From Nitzschia sp. pyKryTriq1 (taxonomy: Eukaryota; Bacillariophyta; Bacillariophyceae; Bacillariales; Bacillariaceae): 64,000 bases of DNA. Location: contig OY101121.1 in assembly GCA_956465555.1 (NCBI GenBank), positions 1,698,722 through 1,762,721 on the forward strand. The letters run 5' to 3'. Both the position numbers and the translations under genes were made by a program. The notes beneath the pieces were generated by a model. The model searched no databases and was not told where the DNA came from. It saw only the letters and a program-made list of their open reading frames with translations. Position 1 is the first letter of the stretch, and the number at the start of each line of letters is the position of its first letter. Below are positions 10,383-62,237 of this stretch, one piece after another.

Positions 10383-11885
10383 ATGAGAATCCAATTATCT
10401 GCCGTTGCAATGGCATCTGCCTTTGCGCTGTCAGAGGCTACGCACGAACTCGTCAAGGACATCTACCCAGGAGAAACTTCCTCCAGTCCCATCGGTCTGA
10501 CCTTGTTTGATGGCAAGGCGTATTTTGCCGCCACCGGTGAGGATACTGGTGTAGAGATCTACGTTTCTGATGGTCAAACTGAAGGCACCAAGATGCTCAA
10601 GGATATCAACCCTGGTTCGGGAGGTTCGAACCCGAGCGCTTTTGCTGAGTTCGATGACAAGCTCTTCTTCCGCGCAGACGACGGAACCAATGGAGCAGAA
10701 TTGTGGGTCACAGACGGCACAGAGGCTGGGACCCAACTCTTCCTCGACATCAATGACGGTGCCGAATCCTCTAACCCGCATGATTTCGTCGTGATTGGGA
10801 ACAAAATGGTCTTTGTGGCCACTACCCCTGACGAAGGTGAGGAACTTTGGGTCACTGATGGAACTGTGTCAGGCACCAAGCTGCTTGAGGACATTCAAGA
10901 AGGACCCAACGGTTCGAGCTTGCATCTCCGACCCGAGTACTTGATTGGCGATGATACATTGGTCTTCCCCGCCGACGATGGTCAAAACGGTCAATCGCTT
11001 TTCAGTACCGACGGTACCCGTACCACCTTCCTTAAGGATGTCAGCATTGGGGATACCCTAGAGACCCTCTCCATCGCTCGCCCTAAGGATAGCGTGGTCG
11101 ATGAAGTCTTTTTCGCGGTTGGTAGTGAGTTGTGGGTTACTGATGGAACCACATCGGGCACTACGCTTGTACAAGACGGGGTGGAGGTTGGCGGCCCCTC
11201 CCGTATCTCGTCTTATACTCTTGGGGGCAATACGCTTTTCTTTGGCAGGAAAACTGGTGAAAGTGGTGATAACTTGTGGGAGACACGAGGAACTTCATCA
11301 AGCACGAGAATCATCGCTTCTGGGTTGGAATCCCCGGAGACAGAGGTCAGCCGTGGCGCTTCTTCTGTGTACGGTCTCGGATTCGGTCCTGAAATCAACG
11401 GTAAAATGGCGTTGATTACAGATAACGGTATTGGTACGAACCTTTGGGTTACCGATGGCAGTGACATTGAACCGCTTGTGGAGTCCACTTTTGACTGGGT
11501 GCTTGACGTGAAGCTCTCAGAAAATGGAGACCAGGCTCTGTTTTATATCAAGAACGGCACCGCACTGGAATTGTGGGCATCGGACTATACGTCAAAGAAT
11601 ACTCAGTTGCTGACATCTTTCCCCGATGGCGTTACAAGCAGCGCGGGATATTCGCTAACGCTGGATGACAAGATCGCCCTGTTTACCGTCGCTACCGCTG
11701 AGTATGGAGTCGAGCTATGGAAAATTGAGTATCCTGAGATAGACTCGGCCCCATCTAGGTCACCCACAAGACGTCCAACACGAAGTCCAACAAGGGCACC
11801 AACGATTGACACTGCAGCTGCGCCTATGGCGTCACTTGGTTTGGTGGCTATGTTGGTGTCTGCCGCGAGTGCGCTCCTCTTGTAA
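10383..11885 (+). CDS. Secreted ELWVTDGT-repeat protein, possibly GPI-anchored
   Basis: This 500-residue single-exon protein starts with a signal peptide (IQLSAVAMASAFALSEA). The body is a tandem array of about eight to nine repeats centred on ELWVTDGT (variants EIYVSDGQ, NLWETRGT, NLWVTDGS, ELWASDYT), each followed by a GTxLLxDI-like strand and spaced roughly 45-55 residues. Such repeats are known from bacterial and algal surface proteins and are expected to fold as a beta-propeller-like structure. A linker with PTRxPT repeats (SRSPTRRPTRSPTRAPT), common in diatom extracellular proteins and probably glycosylated, precedes a C-terminal hydrophobic segment ending ALLL. That end suits either a GPI attachment signal or a membrane anchor. 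It is probably a cell-surface or frustule-associated protein; function unknown. Confidence 0.85.
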   Translation: MRIQLSAVAMASAFALSEATHELVKDIYPGETSSSPIGLTLFDGKAYFAATGEDTGVEIYVSDGQTEGTKMLKDINPGSGGSNPSAFAEFDDKLFFRADDGTNGAELWVTDGTEAGTQLFLDINDGAESSNPHDFVVIGNKMVFVATTPDEGEELWVTDGTVSGTKLLEDIQEGPNGSSLHLRPEYLIGDDTLVFPADDGQNGQSLFSTDGTRTTFLKDVSIGDTLETLSIARPKDSVVDEVFFAVGSELWVTDGTTSGTTLVQDGVEVGGPSRISSYTLGGNTLFFGRKTGESGDNLWETRGTSSSTRIIASGLESPETEVSRGASSVYGLGFGPEINGKMALITDNGIGTNLWVTDGSDIEPLVESTFDWVLDVKLSENGDQALFYIKNGTALELWASDYTSKNTQLLTSFPDGVTSSAGYSLTLDDKIALFTVATAEYGVELWKIEYPEIDSAPSRSPTRRPTRSPTRAPTIDTAAAPMASLGLVAMLVSAASALLL

Positions 11886-31216: not shown

Positions 31217-34200
31217 ATGGGAGACAACAGTGGTTTGATGATGGAAGACATTTCGAAAGCCCCAGCAGATTCACAACACTACATACAAGAGCATCACGTA
31301 GAAAGCCTGCATGACGCTCACCCGTTCCATGATCATGATGCCCATCATGTGATGGTCGGCAGCAGTGTTGGAGAAATACAAATGATGGCGACACATCATG
31401 ATGTTCCCAATTCCGTGATGGAAGTTGCCATGGATGTCGTGGGCGAAGAGCCGCTTCCCAGTGGTGAGGCGGCTGTCGAAGGAGAAGCCAGCGCTCCACA
31501 CGAACACCCGGCGCACGCGTTTGTTCCTGAAGAGTTGGCTGCTACTGCTGCTGCTGAACCCGAAGAGGGCCCTGCTACCAAGCGCCAACGCCTCGACGAG
31601 GCTGGAGCGGCATCGGTGGCTGCCACGGCGAGCGAGAGTGCACAGAGCAAAAAGATTCATAATGAGCAGTGGAACGAAATGTTGGAGCGCCTCATGGCTT
31701 ACAAGGCAAAGTATGGAAATTGCCTGGTGCCCAAGCGATTTTCGGAAGATGGGAAGCTGGGCACCTGGGTGGAGACCCAGCGAGTGCAGTACAAACGATT
31801 GCCTCGGGTATTTGACGAGACTCTGGGAATCGAGGTTGCTCAGCCCAACAAGCGACTTACGGGGGATCGCCTGCAGAAACTCAATGATCTCGGATTCTGC
31901 TGGTCTGCCAAGAACGTTCGGAAGGCGGGAAGCAGCGGCAGCATCTCATCTACATCCAATACTCCGAACGCCACCAAGACGGATTTGAATCCGACAGCCA
32001 AGATGACGGTGACTGCAGCTCCCAGCGTACCCGCAAGCGTATCCTTCATGCCCAATGATGCTGGAACCACTGAAAGTCCTGGTACTGCAGTTGTACAACC
32101 AGCGACGAATGGTCCACCACTGGCTTCCACCACACTGATGGCTTCAGTTCCAGCGAAACGACCTTCTTCCGACTCGCCATTGCAGAATTACGCTCCCCGT
32201 GCTAGCAATAAAAGCACATCACCCGTAAATACGGATGCACAGTGGGAAGACTTTTATGCCCGAATGGTCAAATTCAAGGAATGGCACGGGCATTGTCTCG
32301 TTCCGAGAAAGTATGAAGCCGACCCAAAGCTTGCGGCTTGGGTCGAATCTCAGCGGGTCTTGTGGAACCGCGATTACAACGCAAATAAGGATAAAGCTCA
32401 GGCTGGGGGGGCTTGGCCCACGGACCCTGCTTCCGCCGCGCAGGCGGTCACCCCTGCCTTTGGCACAACCAAGCGACTCACTCCAGAACGAAAGCAAAGG
32501 CTAGATGATCTGGGTTTCGTTTGGAGTCTTCGGAGCAAGAGAATCGAGGATCACTGGGACGAAATGTTCAAACAGCTTGTGGAGTACAAGAATTTGCATG
32601 GCGACTGTTTGGTCCCTTCGCGATACGAGGCTAATCTCAAACTGGGAAAGGTAGGAAGCTGCAGGGTGTTTTGATATGCATAGATATAACATTATTTTAT
32701 TATTTGTTCATGGGATGGCATGGCTAACATTTATGTTTTGTTCAACAGTGGGTCGAAACGCAACGATACGAGTGGACCAAACTTAAGCGGACCGCTGCGT
32801 CGGACAATGACGAACCGGTTGTCGTCGTCCCTCAAGAAAACAATGCAGGTGGGCGGCCCACCAACCCTCGACTAACACCTGAACGTTTGAGACGTCTCGA
32901 ATCGATTGGGTTTGAATGGAAGGTCAAGAATAAAATGAAGCGGTACTATGACAAACAGTGGGATGGCATGTTCCTCAAGTTGTTGGAGTTCAAGCAAGCC
33001 CATGGACATTGCAATGTGGTACGTTTTCTTAAATGTTTCAAACGATGTATCTTTCTTCTGCAACATTGCTGACTTGTTTGTTCTCTTTATCTATCTTTAA
33101 TTAGCCCAAACGATACCCTGATAATGTGAAGCTTGGCACATGGGTCCATACCCAGCGCATTCAATATCGCAAGCTTATATCAGGAAACACCAAAGGAACT
33201 GGCAAGGAAAAGGGAATTGCAAATGGGGAGTTGTCTCCCGGGGGCGCCATTGATCCATCGTTGCAGTACACCGAGGAAAACGCATCAGAGATTGCCGCTT
33301 GGTCCGTGGAACAGGCTCAGAGCTACCGATTGACCGATGCACGTCGAATACGACTCGAAGAGGTGGGCTTTTGCTGGTCGGCACGGGAAGGCAACGAAAA
33401 AACGACTCTTGAAACGTCCGGTCGCATCACCCGTAACTCCTACGATGACCAATGGGACGCCATGTTTGACTTGCTTGTCCAGTATAAGGAGCAGTACAGA
33501 GATTGTTTGGTGGTAAGTGGTCTCGTCCGTCTTGGGGGTTTTCTGTTGTTTTTGGTCAAACATACACGTACTCATTGGCTTTTTCTTCTATTTATCGATA
33601 TTCCAGCCAAAGCGATATCAGGCAAACCCCAAGCTCGGGACATGGGTGGATACACAGCGGGTACAATACAAGGTAAGCATTCCCCTCGCAAATGATTTTG
33701 GGGGGCGAATGCTAACGGTGACGTTTCTAATCTTTTTATGTTCTTTCTTTCAGAAAATGCTCAAGAAAATTGCCGACATCCAGCATAAGAAGCAACACGG
33801 GGAAACAATGGACGACAATGCCAGCGAGGGGTCAGGGGGTAAGGAACCACCGGGAACACCTTTGGTGGGACGTCTAACTCAAGAACGAATTCAGCGGCTT
33901 CAAAATCTTGGTTTTGTATGGAGTCTACGAGACGATTGGGCCAAACATTACGAGGAACTGAAAGGTAAGCGAGCAACACCAAATAAGTCTCGATATCGTT
34001 CTACTCCTGTCGCTCAAACTAAACACCCGTTTCTCTTCTCTTTAGCTTACAAGCAAATCCATGGTCATTGTAATGTTCCAGCGAGATTCGCAGACAACCG
34101 GCGACTTGGTATCTGGGTTAGCGCCCAGCGTCAACAATACAAAATTTTGCAGCAGCAAAAGCATCTTCAGCCCGGCCAAGTGCTCGTGCCAGCTGCAATC

Positions 34201-34854
34201 GAAGGCGAGGAAGGTGCAATCCCGGCTGCGGAAGGTGCAGCTCAGGCCGGAGACAGTGCCACCAACTCCAAGGCCCGGCGATCGGCTCCCCTCACTCAGG
34301 AACGAATTGACTTGTTGAACAGTTTGGGGTTCGTGTGGACCATCCGATCAAGGGACTCTTTGGGCGAATCCTGGAACCAGCGACTTCACGAGCTGCGTCA
34401 ATTCAAGCAACAATACGGCCATTGTCTCGTTCCATCCCGGTACGACGCTAACCCCGAGCTCGGTATCTGGGTCGGGACGCAGCGGACTCAGTATCGCCTC
34501 TTCATGCGCTCAAAAGAAACTGGGGTGCCTGTTACCACTAGTATGAACGAGGATCGCATCCGAGAACTTGAAGAGCTTGGATTTGTCTGGGCCTTGAGAG
34601 GCAGCATTCCGGATGAGGCTGTGGCAGCAGCTGAAGCAGCCGCAACGGCGGTAGAGATCGCCGACCAAGTAGCTGTAGGGGTCGCAGCTGCGGTCGCCGG
34701 GCATGGTCCCAATGCCTATCATGCTCACCACATGGGACACCATGCGGGACATCATCCTTATGCCGTACACATGACGAATCGTCAATCGGACGTCAATGCC
34801 GCGTCCACTTCCGATAGTCCATCTTCCCACAGTGATTTCATTACGGCGATTTAA
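31217..34854 (+). CDS. Seven-repeat helicase-associated (HA) domain protein
   Basis: Six exons (31217-32650, 32749-33018, 33105-33512, 33607-33672, 33754-33964, 34046-34854) join in frame to about 1065 residues. Seven helicase-associated (HA) domains are recognisable by W..M...L..YK..[HY]G.C.VP.R[YF]...KLG.WV.TQR and a closing RL..LGF.W segment. They begin near genomic 31664, 32240, 32552, 32950, 33440, 33950 and 34360. No helicase or other catalytic domain is present. HA domains are three-helix bundles thought to bind nucleic acid and are common in diatom and bacterial proteins. The N-terminus and C-terminus are His/Ala-rich (HPFHDHDAHHVM; HHMGHHAGHH), and the linkers are Ser/Thr/Pro-rich. 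A DNA- or RNA-binding regulator is inferred. Introns 2 and 3 fall at the same place in two repeats. Confidence 0.88.
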
Positions 34855-52683: not shown

Positions 52684-54477
52684 TCATTTTAGCAGGTACT
52701 CCTGTCCCCCCGACCTCACAACATTACCCGGTCTGCAAGCTGCTCTTTGCAGGGGTGATGTCGTCAGCTTCGTTCCATCGTTGAAATTTTTGGAGTTGTA
52801 GATGTATCCAGTCATACTGCCATCAGAATTTTGCCACCAACGTCTCACTTCAGGAAGGTTTGCGGTGTTGGGGAAGTCCACCGCGTTCTTGTCGATCACC
52901 AAGGATGGACGAGCCTTCGGCGCAGCAGTCACTGGTTTGGGAGCTGCCTCGGTTTCCTCCACGACGTCTTCATCGGCTTTCTTGGACAATCCAAAGAAGG
53001 AGAAGATTGAGGGGATAATCTGCTGCAGATCAGACTTCTCAACAAGAACAGTCTCTGGACGTCCACCAGTATTAGCATTCGGTTCGGCTTTCTCGCGACC
53101 CTCAACTGAAACTGTTCCCCGTACTGACGGAGAGGGCTCTTCCGCCACCTTCGGCCCGCCAAACAAAGAGAATACTGAATTTGCTTGCTCGCCAGCTTGT
53201 CGAAATCCACCTTCAATGGACGCAGTCACTTGCTCACTAGCTTGTCGAAGTACTTGTGTCCCACTACTGCCCTTGGCATCGAGGAAAAAGTCACCTATGG
53301 GGTTACCGAAACTGCCGAAATCGGGAGTTGGGCTTTCAATCATTCTGGTCGGTCGATCACTTGTTTGTTGTCCAGTGGGTCGCGGAATAACGATTGTTCC
53401 CCTTGGTCCTTCTCCGTTCGAGGTGGCGCTTGGTCGTATGACTTGCGTTCCTCTGACGGACGGCTGCTCTGGAGCTTGCCTCACAACCTGGGTTCCTCTT
53501 ACAGATGGCTGTTCTGGAGCTTGCCTTACAACCTGGGTTCCTCTTACAATCGGTTGTTCTGGAGCTTTGGAGATCATCCGAGTACCTCTGACGACGGGCT
53601 GTTCAGGAGCTTGTTTGATCACCTGAGTACCTCTGACAGGAGGTTGCTCTGGGGCTTTGGAGATCGTCTGAGTTGCTCGGATGGGGGGTTGTTCAGGAGC
53701 TTGTTTGATCACCTGAGTACCTCTGACAGGAGGCTGCTGTGGGGCTTTGGAGATCACTTGGGTCCCCCTAACAGGAGGTTCATTTGGATCTCGAGACACG
53801 CTTTGTGTCCCCCAGGACCCACTTGCATTCTCATATGTTTCGCTTGGCGAGCTTCTTGCAATCACTTGGGTACCTCGTGGCGGTGGCTCACTCTTTCTTA
53901 CTACCTGGGTGCCCCATGTCGGCTTTGGTGTGCCAGTCGTGCCGCTAGCAGAGCCGGTAGGTATCATTTGAGTACTGCGTGGTGGTTCGGTTGAAGTGGG
54001 ACTTTGACTACCGCCAGTTTGGGGAGAGGGTATCACCTGAGTCCGACGGACGGGATCGTCGGTGCTTGTACGTACGGGCTCACCTCGCTTCATCGCCGCA
54101 TATTCCTCCCGAGAATAATCTCCAAATTCATTCAAGTCCAACCACTGAGGTGGTGCCTTACCTTCCGCCAGGGAGCGATCTCTGGCTTTGATGTTTGCAT
54201 TCGTCAATATTTTATAGTTCTGTAGGAAATTTTGAAAGCGGACAGGATCAAATTCTCCCTTCCCAAATTTATTTCTCCACTCGTTATAGGCAGTCAATAT
54301 CGCATCATTGTTGAGCAAAGCGTTTGCATCCACGCTAGAGGAAAATAGAGGATGCGCGGATTCAATGGAGCGTGTGCCAATAGACGGAGGAGCTCGGCTC
54401 CAGCTGTGGGGGACGAAGCACGAGCTGCTGTCGACAGCCAAGACAGTTAGCAACACCTTCAGGGGGAGACGCTTCAT
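52684..54477 (-). CDS. Plastid-targeted I29-domain protein with 15-residue GTQVI repeats
   Basis: This single-exon protein of 597 residues starts MKRLPLKVLLTVLAVDSSSC and then FVPHSW: a signal peptide with Phe after the cleavage site, as in diatom plastid preproteins. Residues 62-128 match the I29 cathepsin-propeptide domain (AYNEWRNKFGKG, RFQNFLQNYKI, LDLNEFGDYSREEYAAM), but no cysteine protease follows. Residues 232-350 hold eight units with an exact 15-residue period built on APEQPxVRGTQVIxx (GTQVI cores at 238, 253, 268, 283, 298, 313, 328 and 343), with looser copies upstream. Two aromatic motifs (SVFSLFGGPK about 434-443, SIFSFFGLSKK about 490-500) follow. The C-terminus (543-597) is a compact domain (WWQNSDGSMTGYIYNSKNF, LTTSPL) shared with the protein at 59491-62237. 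Function unknown; a plastid scaffold is inferred. Confidence 0.82.
   Translation of the reverse strand: MKRLPLKVLLTVLAVDSSSCFVPHSWSRAPPSIGTRSIESAHPLFSSSVDANALLNNDAILTAYNEWRNKFGKGEFDPVRFQNFLQNYKILTNANIKARDRSLAEGKAPPQWLDLNEFGDYSREEYAAMKRGEPVRTSTDDPVRRTQVIPSPQTGGSQSPTSTEPPRSTQMIPTGSASGTTGTPKPTWGTQVVRKSEPPPRGTQVIARSSPSETYENASGSWGTQSVSRDPNEPPVRGTQVISKAPQQPPVRGTQVIKQAPEQPPIRATQTISKAPEQPPVRGTQVIKQAPEQPVVRGTRMISKAPEQPIVRGTQVVRQAPEQPSVRGTQVVRQAPEQPSVRGTQVIRPSATSNGEGPRGTIVIPRPTGQQTSDRPTRMIESPTPDFGSFGNPIGDFFLDAKGSSGTQVLRQASEQVTASIEGGFRQAGEQANSVFSLFGGPKVAEEPSPSVRGTVSVEGREKAEPNANTGGRPETVLVEKSDLQQIIPSIFSFFGLSKKADEDVVEETEAAPKPVTAAPKARPSLVIDKNAVDFPNTANLPEVRRWWQNSDGSMTGYIYNSKNFNDGTKLTTSPLQRAACRPGNVVRSGGQEYLLK
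53432..53790 (-). repeat. 45-bp tandem repeat coding for the GTQVI array
   Basis: The coding sequence consists of about eight 45-bp units (ggagcttg...acctgagtacctctgac on the plus strand). Some adjacent units are almost identical in DNA, for example the pair with ttgttcaggagcttgtttgatc. Recent unit duplication or conversion is likely. The array is coding and has no spacer structure, so it is not a CRISPR. Confidence 0.85.
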
Positions 54478-55130
54478 TTTCTTCTCTGTTTTAAGGTTAT
54501 TGAAACCTGAAACTGATTCAATCCTTCCTTTGGCTAATGTAGACTAGAGAGAGGTTGTCGGTGAAGAATCGAAACTTCCACTGGCTTGAAGCTTGAATGG
54601 CATCTGATGACGGCAACAGGAACACAGAAGATCGGCAATCGGCAATCGGCAAGAGAAAACATCATCCATCATCCATCCCCCGTCATCCATCGTGCATAAT
54701 GCCCGCATACGCTCGTACAGTACCATAGTATCGCCGCATCGCCAACACTCTTGGAAGCGCGCGCGGCACCCATCACCGCGTGTGCATGTGAACCAATCAG
54801 AGATGACGCATGCGTTATGCCGTTGGGTTCGTTATTGTCCGTATGCGCGTGCATGACCGCGAGCTTTTTATGCCTGGGTCGTCCCTTTCTACGAGTACTG
54901 TACGAGACATATTCAATGAGAACCACGTATATGAAAACCACGATAAAAACCACGCGATAACGCTAGTAGTAAAAAAGCAAAAGACTCAACTGGCGGGAAT
55001 TGAACCCCAACCTCCTAAGTAATAACAAACACAGGACCGTGTCTTCGTGAGCTATCAGCAGTTCTCCGCGATGGGTCATCGGTCATCGGTCATCATCGTC
55101 CCCTGCTCGATTTGGATCGATTGGAGGTGG
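54478..55130. other. Spacer with tRNA-like element
   Basis: Apart from the tRNA-like stretch listed separately, the region holds catccatcatccatc-type words near 54660-54695 and short gaaccacgtatatgaaaaccacgataaaaacc repeats near 54920-54950. No gene is supported. Confidence 0.4.
54985..55062 (-). tRNA. Degenerate tRNA-like sequence, possibly tRNA-derived
   Basis: On the minus strand there is an exact B-box word (GGTTCAATTCC) about 50 nt after an A-box-like TAGCTCA, and the element is followed by TTTT. An AACTG/CAGTT acceptor-like pairing and a TCCT...AGGA anticodon-stem-like pairing can be drawn. The D stem, T stem and loop sizes do not fit a normal tRNA. It may be a tRNA pseudogene or a SINE-like head. 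Weak evidence. Confidence 0.2.
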
Positions 55131-55436
55131 AATGGCGCCCCAAATGTCTCGGCAAAATAAAAATCACGCTGTCCAGCACATTTCGGTGCTCGTTGTTGTA
55201 GTTTATTTCCATCTGCAAGAGAGGCATACGAGTGAAGAGGAGGAGGGGTCCCAACGGCGCTATGGGTTTGGCCTATGGCGACACGTTGGGACCCACCTTT
55301 TCCTCCCAGCTGCTGCATTACCTCTCCAGCCGCCGAAGGTTGTTGAGTCAAATCCACCCCACTCCGACGGAGGCGCTCCTGGTGTGACCTGGTGCGACCG
55401 TGCCCGTCGGCGATCAATCTTGGATCTGAGGGTTTC

Positions 55437-55514
55437 ATTGTTGTTGTTGTTGTTGTTGCTGCTTTTGCTGTTGCTGTTGCTGTTGCTGTGGCTGTGGCTG
55501 TGGCTGTGGCTGTG

Positions 55515-55546
<32 letters not shown>

Positions 55547-55623
55547 GTCCATTGTGAGGCAACGAAAAATGAAAATGTTGCTGTTGCTGTTGCTGTTGCG
55601 TCCATTGTGAGGCAACGAAAAAT
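55437..55623. repeat. GTTGCT/GCTGTG hexamer tract with duplicated 30-bp end
   Basis: The tract runs from (ttg)n through (ctgttg)n and (ctgtgg)n to about 55555. The 30-bp segment gttgcgtccattgtgaggcaacgaaaaatg then occurs twice, separated by another short (gttgct)n run. Both strands give long low-complexity frames (Leu-Trp or Ser-His/Ser-Asn), which I consider artefacts. Confidence 0.85.
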
Positions 55624-55910
55624 GGGGCATCTGACCGGCGAAGATGGCGCACTTGCTTATGTTATATACAAACATGTATAGGAATGTACGAGAGCGAGCG
55701 CGCATTTGTTTGAATTTGAATCGATTGAATCATGGTTTTCATCGTGGTTTTCACATAGGTGGTTCTCATTGAATACACCACCTGTACTGTACTTACAGTG
55801 TACAGTACTACCAGGAACATCCAAGGATCGAGCGATCACGCGCGCTCCACCTTCCTCCACTGAACTCAAAAGCGCGTTAAATCGAAACCGCGGTGTCTGC
55901 TTCTCAGCGT

Positions 55911-56060
55911 GGCCCACGGTTCTTGGCCTGGCCCACGGTTCTTGGCCTGGGCCAAGAATTCTTGGCCCAGGCCAAGATATCTTGGCCTGGGCCAAGAATA
56001 GGCCAAGAATTCTTGGCCCAGGCCAAAAATTCTTGGCCTGGGCCAAGAATTCTTGGCCTA
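55911..56060. repeat. Array of GGCCAAGAATTCTTGGCC palindromes (copy 1)
   Basis: The array is made of alternating self-complementary blocks: ttggcctgggccaag and aagaattcttggcc, with variants such as gatatc for gaattc. Every block is near-palindromic, so single strands could fold in many registers. The same block family forms a second array at 58237-58392. Confidence 0.9.
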
Positions 56061-56104
56061 GAGCCCCCCTTCTCTGTGCTTCCCCCCCCATTTTTTAAAA
56101 AAAT

Positions 56105-56157
56105 CTGTTGGTCATTCGGACCAGAGAACCATATGGTTCTCTGATTCGGACCAACAG
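56105..56157. repeat. Large imperfect palindrome centred on CATATG
   Basis: A 22-bp perfect palindrome (cagagaaccatatggttctctg at 56122-56143) is flanked by ctgttggtc on the left and gaccaacag on the right. In between, attcgga occurs on both sides in the same orientation. Confidence 0.85.
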
Positions 56158-56177
56158 AGCATACGTGCATATCTAAT

Positions 56178-56888
56178 TTGTTACAAGCCCCATCGATATC
56201 GGCGGTGTCGGCCAAGGCGACGGTCGAAGAAATCAAAGCATCGCTTGGACCAAACAAATTCAAACAGCTCAAACGACTCACCAAAGACTTTGCTGAAAGT
56301 AGTCTCTCCCCTGAGGGCTATGTCGATCAATCCGCAGCCCTGTTCGATCGGGGCTATGCTGATCCAGACTTTTGGTCCTTCTTACCGTCGCTGTTGGAAT
56401 CCTGCCCGAATTCCCAAGCTTCTGAACATGCCCTGCAATACATGAACAGCGTCCGGCGACAACAATTTGCGGAAAAGAAACCGGCGGCCACGCGACCCAA
56501 TCTTGCCGTCGCTGGCACTTCATCATGGGGTGGAAGTGGCCCTGCTATCAGCAGGGTCGCGCAACCCCCCACTGTGAGGTCGTCGCCAGCAACTAGGACC
56601 AACAACTTCCCTGCCATGCCTGCCCGCCTAGCTCCTGCTGTAATGGGTTCCAAGAAGAAGATGGGGTGGTACCGGAGCCGCTACTGTGGTCCGAGCCAAG
56701 GCCTCACCAGGGTCCGTGGCAGTGGCAGCCGCCAATCAAGGCCCACAGGGAGGGAGTGCGACGAAATTCATGGCCAAGCAAAGCAAGCAACAGGCGGCGG
56801 CCAATCAGAACAACCCAACGGAGGCAACAGTCAAAAGAAAAAGAAACAAAAGGATGAGCTTCGCGCTGTTGCGTTTGGAGGGAAGTAG
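56178..56888 (+). pseudogene. Truncated, frame-shifted Hel2/ZNF598-like C-terminal fragment
   Basis: The open frame has no ATG before its domain and begins abruptly next to the palindromic repeats. Residues 14-95 (TVEEIKASLGPNKFKQLKRLT, then FWSFLPSLLESCPNS) resemble, from memory, the helical region near the C-terminus of ZNF598/Hel2-type ribosome-quality-control E3 ligases. A Pro/Ser/Ala-rich stretch follows. Around 56690 the sensible frame seems to switch (+1 frame reads AATVVRAKASPGSVAVAAANQG) and around 56820 it returns to the first frame for a KKKKQKDELRAVAFGGK tail. No RING or zinc fingers are present. It is best read as a broken copy of the 3' end of such a gene; the family call is tentative. 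Confidence 0.5.
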
Positions 56889-57154
56889 GTGATCGACTGC
56901 TAGTGGCGAGAGTCGTGTCTGAGATGTCCGCGTTCTTGTAGTAGACTACTACGGAGTAGATTACTATTCAAAATACGACCCTTCGTTGTTGTTTTTCCTT
57001 ACTAACAACCACTAATGTGTACGATGTTCGTCGGGACTTTATACTACCGGGTACGCATACGTACTGAGAAGAAAGAGATCGTAGCGACTAAAAACCTCTA
57101 ATGGAGACATTTTTACGGCTTCAAAAACTGAGCATATCTCTACGAACCAATCAT

Positions 57155-57867
57155 TTAAAAGACGGCTTCGTCTCCGTCGCCTCCATCACTCTCATCATCA
57201 CTGGCGTAATAGTTTGTCGTGTAATCGGCGACCTCTTCTTCATCTTCCTCCTCGATTTCTGCTGTGTCACTGAGTTCCCCCTCCTCTCCTTCCTCCCCAG
57301 TTGCTTTCTTTCGTTGCTCCTCCGCTGCCAGTTCTTCCAGCGTCAACGCTCGCTTCGGAGTCCCATCCTCGCCTAATTCACCAACTTTGTGAGAAGAAGC
57401 CAAGGGCAAAGCAACAAGCTTGTCAGGCAAAAGTTCTTCGGGAAGGTACCGCGGATCGGCAGTCTTGCCGATGCTCTCCGCTACATGGACATCTGGTTCC
57501 AAAGGGCGCGGACGTTTGTTGTATCGGACCACGTCAACTTCTTGCGACGGTCGGACATAGAAAGGAGAATCCTGGAAGCGATGATGCATTTCGCGGCTCT
57601 TGTTGATCAGATAAATGTTGGGAGCCGTGGCTCGTTTGGATGAGGGACTGAGCTGGTTGCAACGACGAAGGCGTTGGATCATGACCCTTCTGGCCGCTCG
57701 AATGCCATTCAAAATCCGGGAATAGTAGAGGCTTGGTAATGTCTTGCAAGCTGCGCAGATTCCCGGCATCTAGACCAGCTTCTTGAGCTGATCGCTGCAA
57801 CAAGAGCCGTGCTCCCGAGGGCGGAGCTCGCCCCCCCACGGCCGCGGCCTCTACCTCTGCCTGACAT
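57155..57867 (-). pseudogene. RPC31/POLR3G-like gene with two frame changes
   Basis: The start MSGRGRGRGRGG (ATG at 57867) and the acidic end (EEEDEEEVADYTTNYYASDDES) are typical of RNA polymerase III subunit RPC31/POLR3G. The middle is split over three frames. Frame one covers the Gly/Arg start, a second covers PPSGARLLLQRSAQEAGL to TKPLLFPDFEWHSSG, and the third covers NIYLINKSREMHHRFQDSPF to the stop. The first change lies at a run of seven C (57831-57837 on the plus strand); six would keep the frame. The second lies between about 57640 and 57720. No intron of sensible size repairs either. It may be a recent pseudogene or a gene with sequence errors. Confidence 0.6.
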
Positions 57868-58236
57868 GATAATTTCAGTGAGCAACGATTGGGCTATGTT
57901 TCCATAATTGAAGCTGAACGCGGGCTCTTGCGAATGGTTACGATTTCTGGTGTCTCCTATTGACGTCTGCCAACACAGTAAAGCCGTTCGGCCGACATCC
58001 CATTGCCAAGATGAGATGATGATGAGATGTCGCCACAAAACAAGCGACACCTCGAGTGAGAGATGCCATGGTAGGTGGGAAGAAAAGAGAAAATTGAAGA
58101 ATGAATCGATGCGAGAGATCTTGGATTTGTTCAATGAGCGATGATGAAATGGGATGATGAGCGCTGATGCGCTGATGCGATGTTTGAAATTCGACGACTA
58201 GTCTGTTTACTCTTTTGGGGGTACAGAAAGGGGGTA
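57868..58236. other. Spacer with (GATGAT) words before the second palindrome array
   Basis: No gene is supported. It has repeats of gatgatgagatg around 58010-58030 and gatgatgagcgctgatgcgctgatgcg near 58150-58178. Confidence 0.4.
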
Positions 58237-58392
58237 GGCCTTGGGCCAAGACTAGGCCAAGAAATCTTGGCCCAGGCCAAGAATTCTTGGCCTGGGCCAA
58301 GAGTAGGCCAAGAAGTCTTGGCCCAGGCCAAGAATTCTTTGCTCAGGCCAAGAATTCTTGGCCTAGGCCAAGAATCTTGGCCCAGGCCAAGC
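58237..58392. repeat. Array of GGCCAAGAATTCTTGGCC palindromes (copy 2)
   Basis: The same block family as at 55911-56060: aagaattcttggcc, cttggcccaggccaag and aggccaagaatcttggcc with small variants. The two arrays lie 2.2 kb apart and enclose the Hel2-like fragment and the RPC31-like gene. Confidence 0.9.
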
Positions 58393-58829
58393 GGGCTTTG
58401 CCACGGAGCGTGGCTAGCGCGAAAGAGCATTGTCCAAGCGTGCCCGTAAAGCGAGTTCCACGTTAGTGCGCGGTGACCCGCACCCTTGGATGTTCCAGTA
58501 CCGTACCGGTGTACTCGTACAGTAGTCTCCTCTACTACTGTACTACCGGTACTGTACTACTACTACTAGTAGCAATCAGTTGTATGAAATCGTTTGGTAC
58601 TCTGCGCTGCCAACTATGCATGGAAGAGAAGCTTGCTATTCTACGTGCTAGTTCGCAGCAGCCTACTCTGATGTTGAATCGCGCAAGCGAAATCGACGAA
58701 GGATGCAAGCACAGAACTACCGGTAGGTTCCATCGTCGTTTTTGTACATCTGCAGACTACTAGTAGCGCTTATGATCCCCCGTCAGGGACTCTTATTTAC
58801 CCCTGGATCCGTACGGGTGAAAAGAGTCC
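58393..58829. other. Spacer with GTAC/TACCGGTA island
   Basis: A dense palindromic island (58490-58575: ccgtaccggtgtactcgtacagtag, ctactaccggtactgtactactacta) lies in otherwise gene-free sequence. Confidence 0.4.
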
Positions 58830-59115
58830 ACTGAGTCAATCAGAGGATTGTCTGGTGTGGCTACTACTTGTATCGTTCCGGCGGAAGAGAGATTCATTGC
58901 TCTCGACCGTCAAGGTAGTAACTACTATTAAGTAGTAGTATATCGTAAAGCAGCAAAAAAGTGCACTGTCTAATTTAGTTGTAGTAGTATATATCGTATA
59001 GCAGCGAAAAAGTGCACTGTCTAATTTAGTTACTACCTTGAATGTCGAGAGCAATGAATCTCTCTTCCGCCGGTACGATAGTAGCCACGCCAGACATTCC
59101 TCTGATTGACTCAGT
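58830..59115. mobile_element. MITE-like fold-back element with about 90-bp inverted repeats
   Basis: The left arm (58830-58922) and right arm (59029-59115) are inverted copies beginning actgagtcaatcagagg and ending ggtagtaac, with roughly ten small differences. Between them are two direct copies of about 50 bp (agtagtatatcgtaaagcagc... and agtatatatcgtatagcagc...), each ending agtgcactgtctaatttagtt. No coding capacity and no clear target-site duplication were seen. It resembles a non-autonomous fold-back DNA transposon; the superfamily cannot be assigned. Confidence 0.75.
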
Positions 59116-59490
59116 AGTAGTAGTCTTTAGTTGTCACTATACTCTAGTTTTGTGGTCCTGTGTCTTGTCCTCCCTCGATGCGATCTCGGCTAGCTAGCTG
59201 CTCCGGTACAGTAGATTACTCCGAGTCAAACGTGGTTTAAAATATTAGTATCTCATTTTCCGCGCCCAACCAGTGATTTGCAAGGTAGAGAAAACTTCCA
59301 CCTAGTAGAACTCCCTTCTTCATCAGACGGGTAAGAATCATCATTTAAAAGGTACGGGTAAAGATGGTGTTGATATATCATTCCATACTGCTACTCGTTA
59401 ATTTGCATATCAATTTGTAATTCCTTAGCAGATCATGTGAATACCCATTCACAATATGTATGGTCTTAGGTTTTTGCGCAGCGCGAAACT
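59116..59490. other. Spacer downstream of the FSLF-repeat gene
   Basis: No gene or repeat was recognised beyond short tagtag and tagctagc words; it includes the presumed 3' UTR of the minus-strand gene ending at 59491. Confidence 0.35.
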
Positions 59491-62237
59491 CTAGGACAAC
59501 CTATACTGACTTCCAGACCCAGTTCGGACAACAGACCCTGCCTTGGCTCCCTTTCGAACCGGTGATGTGGTAATCTCGGTTCCGTTTCGGAAGTTAGGAG
59601 AGTTGCTAACCCGGCCGGTGATGGAACCATCAGCATTCTGCGTCCATCGCGCCAACACGGGAATACTGTCCTTGGGTGATGCCTTTGAAGCAGGTGCGGC
59701 CGCACCCTTGGGTGAACCGAACAAAGAGAGAGTTGGCCGAGCTGGAGCAGCTTTTTTAGCGGGAGCAACCTTTGCCGAAGCTTTGGGGGTGGCTGGCTTC
59801 GATCCGCCAAAGAAAGAAAACGCTGGTTTGGGAGCCGGTGCTGGGGCTGGTGCGGGTTCCGGTTTAGCGGCTGGTTTAGGACTGAAGAAGGAAAAAGCTG
59901 GGGCGGCCTTTGGCGCAGGGGCGGGAGTAGGAGCGGGCTCAACCTTCTTTGGTGCTGGCTTTGGACTGAAGAACGAGAAGGACGGAGCGGCCTTCGCAGC
60001 AGGGGGAGGAGTAGGAGCAGGGGCGGCCTTCTTTGGTGCTGGTTTCTTGTTGTCAAACAACGAGAATGAAGGGGCCGGTGCCCTAGGAGCCGGTTTTGGA
60101 GCTGGTGCAATAGTTGCTTTTGGTGCTGGTTTGGGCGCGGCATCCTTCTTTCCTCCGAACAAGGACGAGAAGGCCTCTGTCACAGGATCACTGGTATCAA
60201 TCTTCGGCGCAGGCTTCGCATCCACCTTGGTCTCTGAAGCAGGTGTAGAAGAAGGTGCGCTGAAAAGGTTTTCCAAGCTCAGAGAGGGTCGTGGGGCAGC
60301 GGGTGCCTTTACCTTTGCAGCAGGCGCGGCCTTCTTCGGAACCGCTTTTGGAGCTGGTGCAGGTGAAGAAAAGAGGCTCAAAGTTGGTCGTGGGGCGGGT
60401 GCAGGCGCGGGTCCCTTTGGCTTGGAGGAGTCAAAGAGTGCGCCGAGGCTGAGTGTCGCCCTTGGTGCCGCTTCCTTGGGACTCGCTTTTGCCTTGGGGG
60501 CTGCCTTCTTTGCGGGCGCCTTTGTTTTATCATCGGAAGAACCAAAGATAGATCCAAGTGAAAGTGCAGGCTTCTTTTGTGGTACTGGCGGAGGTGGCGT
60601 CTTGGATTTGGGTGCGAGTCGGGCTTGCTTCTCATCCCATTCCCGTGCTTGAGCCCGAAGTATTTCGGCCGCCTCTTCGGCAATAGCACGTTGTTTCGCC
60701 ATTCGTGCCGCTTCTTTCTCTGCAGCTTCCTTGGCCTGTCACAAATAAAAGAAATAGGGAGTTATTAGCGTACGTATTCGGGTACGACATATGATGTGTG
60801 CATACGTCCCCCAGTGAGAACCGGGTACTTACTGCGGCGATGGCAGCCGATGCCGCTGCCAGTTGTTCCTTTTCGGCCTCCTTCGCCTGTGCGGTTTGAC
60901 GCTCACTCTTTTCCTTTTCGATTTCCTTTCGACGCTCTTCCTCCGACATGTTGGCGAGACGGGCTAGAGATTACAGGACGTGCAATGTGAGTTCAGTTGC
61001 GTGATATCTTGAAAGAAAGCTTATCTTCGGCGGAACGCACCTTTTTCGGCAATGGCTTTCTGCTTGGCTTCCGCCTCAGCCTTTTTCTTGTCCGCCTCGG
61101 CCTTCTTCATGGCTTCAATGTCAGCTTTCTTCTTTGCTTCCTCTTCGGCCTTCTTTGCAGCAATTTCCGCGGCAGCCTTCTTCGCCTCCTCCTCTTTGGC
61201 CTTCTTCGCTGCTGCCTCCTCTTGTGCCTTGGCAGCAGCTGAAGGTTCAGCTTCAGGCTTGCTACTCAATTCCTCCTCAGCAGCCTTAATTGCCGACTCT
61301 GCTTCTTTGACTGCTGATTCAGCTTCTTTGACAGCATCGTCGCCTTCCATCATAGCAGCATACTCCTCTTCGGTGCAGTCGGCGTATTCGTTGAGAGCCA
61401 TTTCTTTTCCCGACTCCTTTGCGAATTCCTCCATTTCCAGGTAATTTGAGGAAAATTGTTGGAAGCGAGCCTCGTTCGACTCTTTTCCATACTCTTTGCA
61501 CCACTCCAGGTAAGCAGACCGAACTCGGGCCTCCCGAGCCAAATTATCACCCTCCAGTAGTCCACCATCGGATGCGATGCCTTCCATCGAGTCAATGGCA
61601 TCCTCCAACTCTTCCACGCTTTCGAGTCCAAGAGCAGCAGCCAATTTCTACCAGTACAAGTAACGAGCTAAGAAACCAGAAAAAATGTACAACATCACAC
61701 GGCACGACACACGACAAATGCACATACCTCTTCTTCTTCAGCCAAGGCATCGGCAGCTTCTTGCAAGGCATTCGAGGCAGCCGATTGTGATTCGGCAGCT
61801 TCGACGACTTGTCCAAGAATATCTCCCGTCGACGCTGGAGGCTTCTCTCCGTTCATTGCTGACTCGTATTCCTCGGCAGTGTAATCTGCGTACTCGTTGA
61901 GAGCTAGAAGGGATGGGCTTTCTTCGCCAGATTCACGAGCAGCCTTCTTGGTCGAAACATTCATGATAGTGATGGCTTCGTAGTTCTCCTTGAAGATTTG
62001 GTACCTACCAGCATCAAAGGTCTTCCCGTACGTTTTGCACCAATCGTCGTAGGCCAATCGAGCCGCCGCATCGTAGGGGACAGAAATATCGGATTCCGTT
62101 GCCATCTCTACCGATGTGGCTGCTCGAACGGTAGCATGTTTGTGGTGTCGGAGCAGACTGGGAGGCACAAATGCAGAGACTTGCTCCGAAGCCTCCAACG
62201 CCACCAAGGCTAAAACTGCGAGGCTGAAACCCTTCAT
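59491..62237 (-). CDS. Plastid-targeted double-I29, coiled-coil, FSLF/PAPK-repeat protein
   Basis: Four exons (62237-61728, 61647-61041, 60963-60833, 60735-59491) join in frame to 830 residues. The leader MKGFSLAVLALVALEASEQVSAFVPP is a textbook diatom plastid presequence (signal peptide, then AFVPP). Two I29-like domains follow: residues 61-130 (AYDDWCKTYGK, LALNEYADYTAEEY) and 214-272 (AYLEWCKEYGK, MALNEYADCTEEEY). Residues 275-460 are a Lys/Glu/Ala coiled coil. Residues 470-760 form a Pro/Ala/Lys-rich disordered tract with ten hydrophobic motifs (LSLGSIF, LSLGALF, LSLF, LSLENLF, FSSLF, FSLF, FSFF three times, LSLF) every 23-38 residues. The C-terminal domain (775-830: RWTQNADGSITGRVSNSPNF, ITTSPV, SGSQYRLS) is shared with the protein at 52684-54477. 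No protease domain exists. A multivalent plastid scaffold or linker is inferred. Confidence 0.85.

Follow-up and report, generated by a model that had tools for sequence, protein, structure and literature searches.

A pair of diverged diatom genes that join propeptide-like heads and repeat arms to a phage-type tail domain: possible scaffolds of the plastid stroma

What use would a diatom have for two proteins in which protease propeptide domains, with no protease attached, precede long repeat arms and end in one common tail domain? The question is raised by two genes, here called A and B, on the minus strand of a 64 kb stretch of the Nitzschia sp. pyKryTriq1 genome (GCA_956465555.1, contig OY101121.1, positions 1,698,722 to 1,762,721), which we refer to as the window. 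An original prediction, made from the letters of the window, had described them as a pair of plastid scaffold proteins. Our analysis, which rests on sequence and predicted structure, suggests that A and B are a pair of multivalent scaffolds or tethers of the plastid stroma, a reading to which we give a probability of about 0.5. What appears to be new here is the homology of their common C-terminal tail to a domain of phage proteins.

Reconstruction of open reading frames (ORFs) and splice sites placed both genes, on one strand, where the original prediction had them (Table 1). Gene A is a single open frame, while gene B is assembled from exons 62237-61728, 61647-61041, 60963-60833 and 60735-59491, whose three introns (80, 77 and 97 nt) are all of the GT-AG type and leave an 830-aa frame after splicing. 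Other ORFs lie between the two genes on both strands, which corrects the earlier description. Judged by their alignments, A and B are diverged paralogues: the N-terminal ~160 residues share 32% identity over 166 columns (BLASTP, filter off, E 6.5e-16) and the last 58 residues share 50% (filter on, E 1e-13). When the window was searched with tblastn, the tail domain was confined to A and B and the I29 copies to three places, all remaining matches having an E of 0.17 or worse. The final domain is thus the same in both proteins, as had been proposed; its phage type had been missed.

We read A and B as scaffolds or tethers because folded heads, a motif-bearing arm and a folded tail stand together behind a plastid-type leader. 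After import, each protein would present a folded head of one (A) or two (B) I29 domains. A long low-complexity arm would come next, in which hydrophobic or aromatic motifs recur at regular intervals (GTQVI in A, FSFF/LSLF-type in B) and could serve as stickers; the small tail after it is predicted to be a beta domain and has homologues among phage proteins. The heads of B would be kept apart from its sticky arm by a charged helix, in which about 150 residues are free of Pro and Gly and which would measure ~22 nm if continuous. The heads and the tail may bind particular stromal partners, and the arms may self-associate or bind a repetitive partner, so that these partners would be held together, whether in a condensate or along a surface. 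From these parts we infer a plastid location, sticker behaviour of the motifs and a scaffold function, and the evidence for each part is given below.

Proteins imported into diatom plastids, which are of secondary red origin, carry a signal peptide, a Phe at its cleavage site and a transit-like stretch. Both proteins display this pattern, in agreement with the original prediction, when judged by eye and by hydropathy. With an 11-residue window, hydropathy peaks at 2.13 at residue 5 in A and at 2.82 at residue 4 in B, and Phe-Val-Pro begins at residues 21 and 23, respectively. No stretch resembling a membrane span was found past residue 30, where the 19-residue hydropathy maxima are 0.84 (A) and 0.48 (B). 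These features suggest that A and B are imported into the plastid.

The heads are, on the evidence of profile and fold comparisons, related to the propeptides of cysteine proteases, and they come with no protease. Against Inhibitor_I29 (PF08246; Pfam cut-off 24.4 bits) the whole gene B protein scored 49.6 bits and each of its two copies passed in isolation, while the single domain of A is borderline, falling below the cut-off in the whole protein and above it when isolated (Table 1). A profile of the three copies matched wheat triticain alpha in its propeptide (4e-5). The 13 PDB entries that best match the structure predicted for gene B copy 1 from an alignment of three sequences are either crammer or cysteine proteases of the papain type, whose titles mostly name a proform or propeptide; the Foldseek probabilities are 0.57-0.98 and the E values 0.09-2.0, none of them significant by E. 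Pfam searches of A and B at E up to 1 returned nothing but I29. A C1 active-site motif (CGSCW-like, three patterns) was absent from the six frames of the 64 kb, a search that intron-split or diverged motifs would escape. The orphan I29 domains of the original prediction are present in both proteins, in A with a borderline score.

Heads of this kind could also mean that A and B are tethered protease inhibitors, whose I29 domains would inhibit a papain-type protease as crammer and CTLA-2 do, with the repeats and tail only holding them in place, be it in the plastid or in some other compartment. All three copies keep the core Trp, the ERFNIN-type Arg, Phe and Asn, the NxFxD motif, EE[YF] and a Gly six residues past that aromatic, so the Arg, Glu and cleft Gly that matter in crammer are all present. 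By comparison with crammer, neither gene B copy has the second-core Trp, and in A it is shifted by one residue. In crammer, inhibition depends on the Gly and on an Arg-Glu salt bridge, and the G73A, R28A and E67A changes impair it (PMC4089206, PMC3551606); the crammer Gly lies five residues past the aromatic, against six in A and B (PMC4089206). We retain this explanation because the inhibitory landmarks are largely intact, and we consider it unlikely: folding alone may account for the conserved core residues, the second Trp is lost or shifted, the Gly is displaced by one, and the C1 motif was not found nearby.

Behind its head, protein A carries a repeat arm with an isoelectric point (pI) of 10.9. 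Residues 136-540 contain 17 copies of the pattern [GRSEPA]T-x-[VMSTI]-[IVL], compared with a mean of 1.09 and a maximum of 6 in 5000 shuffles. The successive spacings are 23, 21, 13 and 21 residues, eight of exactly 15, and then 17, 16, 30 and 48. The strict 15-residue GTQVI array of the original prediction is accordingly present in nine motifs, but the other copies are looser. The eight in-register units differ from one another with a ratio of nonsynonymous to synonymous change (pN/pS) of 0.36, which falls to 0.17 for the six codons of the core VRGTQV; the units are thus under purifying selection, and the constraint on the array acts at the protein level. Both proteins had been said to bear long tracts with F-S-[LF]-F motifs; this applies to B, but A has just two FSxF motifs and its tract is the GTQVI array.

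The regularity of the array admits another function. TxxI is a docking motif for FHA domains once its threonine is phosphorylated, and TQV is one for the dynein light chain LC8, and a row of such sites might dock one folded partner. Nine motifs stand in the 15-residue register and 9 fit R.TQ[VT]; all 17 fit T-x-x-[IVL], though the search pattern itself demands that. The strict LC8 pattern matches none of them, and LC8 is cytosolic, in conflict with the plastid-type leader. We regard this docking row as very improbable.

In protein B the heads are followed by a charged segment (residues 286-456), which had been taken for a coiled coil. That assignment was not borne out: its hydrophobic heptad pattern was equalled by 798 of 2000 shuffles, while its 36 E-K pairs at i,i+4 exceed every one of 2000 shuffles (mean 17.1, maximum 28). 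We set the coiled coil aside in favour of a single charged helix, which fits the sequence better and has two prolines close to its start. The Pro/Ala/Lys linker beyond it contains nine strict [LF]S[LF] motifs (5000 shuffles: mean 0.36, maximum 4) and ten with FSSLF, which agrees with the ten motifs originally counted and lies above every shuffle. Four of the motifs have a longer or changed core (LSLGSIF, LSLGALF, LSLENLF and FSSLF), and the spacing is 24-37 residues. With 46 Lys in 317 residues, the linker has a pI of 10.5. Protein B is strongly polarised, since the linker carries a net charge of +36 and residues 48-290 one of -38.

A basic arm with aromatic motifs raises the possibility of a Rubisco linker, or of a tether from the pyrenoid matrix to its shell or to thylakoids, which would work like EPYC1, CsLinker or PYCO1 with other motifs and would be a special case of the scaffold. 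PYCO1 has a pI of 10.03 and its stickers are KWSP for the small subunit and EWxSMN for a helix of the large subunit (PMC10288592). The exact strings KWSP, GTGYNP, EWGSMN and EWASMN are absent from both A and B, and so is an EPYC1-type motif; the original remark that the motifs differ from those of EPYC1 and PYCO1 is correct, and because neither protein has the PYCO1 motifs we refuse to identify them as PYCO1. The FLIPPer search for linkers takes repeated elements spaced 20-120 residues apart (PMC11570498); by this filter, the only one of that search applied here, the 24-37 residues of gene B fall inside the range and the 15 of the gene A array fall outside. The plastid-type leaders, the basic arms and the ten gene B motifs at linker spacing speak for a linker. 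Known linkers have no common sequence homology (PMC13159521), and the authors of PYCO1 saw no homologue in other sequenced algae (PMC10288592); how Rubisco is condensed in other diatoms is for this reason an open question. The class is defined, however, by Rubisco binding, and with the motifs absent and the gene A spacing too short we consider a linker function doubtful. In the fullest version of this idea, A, B and their relatives would be a diatom family of scaffolds in or around the pyrenoid, whose sticker arms were joined to a cathepsin propeptide captured as head and to a beta tail of phage origin, and which would serve as Rubisco linker or matrix tether in diatoms without PYCO1, a conjecture that we put forward as improbable.

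What is new here concerns the tail domain. An AlphaFold2 model of the gene B tail, made from a two-sequence alignment, has five strands. When the model was compared with predicted viral proteins (BFVD), 19 of the best 50 of 564 matches had a probability of at least 0.99, and the best E among those 50 was 7e-4, the sole one below 0.001. Fifteen of the same 50 reached a probability of 1.00; seven of these are named, and all seven are phage proteins that are uncharacterised or carry a DUF label. DUF7390, named in one BFVD match, lies outside the matching part. Among the PHROG families, the gene A tail matched phrog_8840 (Table 1), phrog_11960 (0.0097) and phrog_30202 (0.042), and the gene B tail phrog_11960 (0.23).

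We gathered 14 phage proteins with this domain: LIMEzero ORF21 through its BFVD match, two through the gene A tail (tblastn E 0.3 and 3, chosen from ten records with E 0.3 to 10) and the rest from phage sequences. Of their 17 domain rows, all but a fragment of 15 residues went into a hidden Markov model (HMM) of 16 domains, which was run against the 929 stop-to-stop ORFs of the window. The tails of B and A ranked first (Table 1), and the best unrelated frame scored 3.6 bits. Without the two phages reached from gene A, B scored 18.6, A 15.5 and the best decoy 3.8 bits; when LIMEzero, megetsur and RcXuper were also left out, B fell to 6.3 (E 0.48) and A to 12.1 (E 0.007), with the best decoy at 5.1. 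Because the scores drop when these five are removed, the bridge between phages and tails depends to a considerable extent on the nearest phages. Aligned by HHalign with the 16 phage domains, the two tails had a probability of 97.2% (E 3.5e-11; 27% identity in 55 columns), or 96.6% once the two gene-A-reached phages were excluded; 200 column shuffles reached at most 7.9%. On the HMM ranking, the HHalign probability and these shuffles, the homology of the A/B tail to a small, DUF6957-like phage domain is well supported.

The Pfam family DUF6957 itself was not matched by the A or B tails. It was seen in three of six phage proteins tested, one of them above the cut-off (28.3 against 27 bits), and was below the cut-off in two of three phage records and absent in 14 control genomes; the phage profile itself was not run on bacterial genomes. 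In two Rhizobium phages the tail-type domain occurs as a tandem pair in one protein (L003:1246-1665 and L015:598-1005), and in a Morganella phage (L004:476-1138) it forms the C-terminus of a 220-aa protein. Viral and genome contig collections yielded no relatives with the tail, the I29 domain, a tail-plus-LIMEzero alignment or a DNA pattern; these searches used the tail and I29 domains, not the whole proteins A and B. In the same collections, a phage-only alignment found two loci, apparently phages already in the set. Phage records searched with the gene B tail gave two Listeria phage records (E 5 and 7), plasmids yielded nothing, either to a single phage query at E up to 0.01 or to the gene A tail at E up to 1, and a motif scan of LIMElight, another BFVD match, did not pick out a relative of the tail. 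All other relatives of the tail found here are from phages.

Matches to known structures were weaker. No PDB entry matched the tail model significantly, the top one being the SANTA domain of M18BP1 (E 0.57, TM-score 0.47), and sequence searches of the PDB returned nothing credible; NCBIfam gave no match to the tail. SANTA (PF09133) was rejected as an identity, with no Pfam match and an HHalign probability of 0.36%, below the best of 100 shuffles. In 12 pairwise tests of SANTA against the tail, one result was reached by 6 of 1000 shuffles and the rest by 52-256 of 1000.

The surroundings of the phage relatives bear on a different role, in which A and B would organise the plastid nucleoid or other nucleic acids, the linker behaving as histone H1-type tails do and the C-terminal domain retaining a role that it had in phage DNA metabolism. 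An Ala/Pro/Lys linker may resemble an H1-type tail, and that of gene B holds its 46 Lys and charge of +36. In several phages the relative has replication or nuclease genes in its vicinity, namely a helicase and a DNA polymerase in LIMEzero, and an exonuclease, ThyX and a nuclease in others. Further relatives stand among hypothetical or unrelated genes, the phage domain is of unknown function, and regular aromatic motifs are not expected in a tail that coats DNA; we consider a nucleoid role quite unlikely.

For a scaffold or tether of the stroma speak the architecture common to both diverged paralogues, motif counts beyond all 5000 shuffles in each arm, the purifying selection on the gene A units, the gene B motif spacing inside the linker range, the basic pI of both arms, the lack of a stretch like a membrane span past residue 30 and the hydrophobic start with FVP in both proteins. 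Several points weigh against it. In a charge-hydropathy test the I29 domains came out as disordered and residues 425-540 of gene A as folded, so that folded and unfolded parts were not told apart; the composition of both arms suggests disorder. The inhibitory residues of I29 are largely kept, which a purely structural role does not require, and the K/A/P-rich linker would be compatible with DNA binding as well. Relatives were sought solely in viral and prokaryote collections, with two domains and one DNA pattern. Taken together, the scaffold of the original prediction fits best, with the leaders, the orphan I29 domains, the multivalent motifs and the shared tail all present, but its Rubisco or pyrenoid part has no direct support.

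Searches of the open literature for I29 with diatom pyrenoids, cathepsin propeptide inhibitors with diatom chloroplasts, and SANTA with diatoms found nothing; the phage domain was not among the search terms, and the A/B family may already be known elsewhere. The two proteins are concrete candidates for Rubisco condensation in other diatoms, with parts that are clearly deletable. In addition, a domain that is otherwise phage-only among the relatives found ends two eukaryotic, apparently plastid-bound proteins. If this reflects a transfer, it would be an unexpected route of a phage module into organelle biology and a starting point for working out the function of this uncharacterised phage domain.

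Table 1. Positions in the window of genes A and B and of the parts of their proteins (res, residues; pLDDT, predicted local distance difference test)
Feature	Position	Strand	Description	Support
Gene A	52684..54477	minus	single exon, 597 aa	open frame ATG to TGA
Gene A leader	54334..54477	minus	signal-peptide-like start (res 1-20), plastid-type leader from FVP (res 21-48)	hydropathy and by eye
Gene A I29-like domain	54073..54333	minus	res 49-135	PF08246 25.0 bits isolated, 20.1 whole protein
Gene A GTQVI array	53413..53817	minus	in-register 15-residue units (res 221-355); looser copies over res 144-457	
Gene A SVFSLFGGPK motif	53149..53178	minus	res 434-443	
Gene A SIFSFFGLSK motif	52981..53010	minus	res 490-499	
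Gene A C-terminal phage-type domain	52687..52860	minus	res 540-597	phrog_8840 E 0.0015; phage HMM 19.5 bits
Gene B	59491..62237	minus	four exons, 830 aa	GT-AG introns, one continuous frame
Gene B leader	62097..62237	minus	signal-peptide-like start (res 1-22), plastid-type leader from FVP (res 23-47)	hydropathy and by eye
Gene B I29 copy 1	61836..62081	minus	exon 1	PF08246 36.3 bits; model pLDDT 89.5; procathepsin-type fold matches
Gene B I29 copy 2	61339..61533	minus	exon 2	PF08246 27.5 bits; place confirmed by tblastn
Gene B charged segment	60616..61302	minus	single-helix-like (res 286-456), spans introns 2 and 3	
Gene B Pro/Ala/Lys linker	59668..60618	minus	ten FSFF/LSLF-type motifs (res 456-772), net charge +36	
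Gene B C-terminal phage-type domain	59494..59667	minus	res 773-830	pLDDT 83.6; BFVD matches; phage HMM 20.6 bits

Between the two genes lie an ORF with a ZNF598 PAH-like match (56178-56888, plus strand) and a 204-aa ORF without a Pfam match (57155-57769, minus strand). The ZNF598-like ORF sits between two arrays (55920-56059 and 58237-58391) of a ~20-bp palindromic unit of the AGGCCAAGAATTCTTGGCC type, which are 84-90% alike in two orientations. A hexanucleotide TGTTGC array of 18 copies occupies 55439-55546 and a perfect duplication with a 53-bp period occupies 55523-55624. Downstream of gene B, a ~286-bp fold-back (58830-59115) has arms that are 94-95% complementary, and the region 58825-59120 has a folding energy of -101.9 kcal/mol as single-strand DNA (z -22.9); it occurs in one copy only in the window and looks like a miniature inverted-repeat transposable element or a fold-back element. 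Elsewhere in the window, 31217-34854 holds ORFs with helicase-associated (HA) repeats, the first with three stretches that pass (PF03457, E 5e-45) and the second judged by eye, and there is a sub-threshold HSF-like match; genes with HA repeats and HSF-like genes are common in diatoms. A 500-aa ORF at 10383-11885 has repeated ELWVTDGT-type motifs, a signal-peptide-like start by eye and no Pfam match.

Finally, we compared A and B with known systems. The SANTA domain of M18BP1/KNL2 is the top PDB fold match of the tail model, without sequence support. PHROG 8840 and 11960 and DUF6957 resemble the A/B tail at an HHalign probability of 97.2% over 55 columns, and differ in context, since among the 14 phage proteins the domain occurs by itself, as a tandem pair or joined to other parts. 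Crammer, CTLA-2 and BCPI also have a propeptide-type domain without a protease, and the Arg, Glu and Gly landmarks are kept (PMC4089206); they are small single-domain proteins, whereas A and B combine the domain with repeats and a tail, and the second-core Trp is lost or shifted. Gene B is like EPYC1 and CsLinker in its basic arm and in a motif spacing inside the 20-120 range (PMC11570498), but A and B have extra folded ends and gene A a spacing of 15; CsLinker was not compared by sequence. PYCO1, the Rubisco linker of Phaeodactylum, differs from A and B in that they have folded I29 heads, a tail domain and other repeats; it is like them in being a basic repeat protein with aromatics in its repeated motifs, and its plastid leader has a putative counterpart in their plastid-type leaders (PMC10288592).

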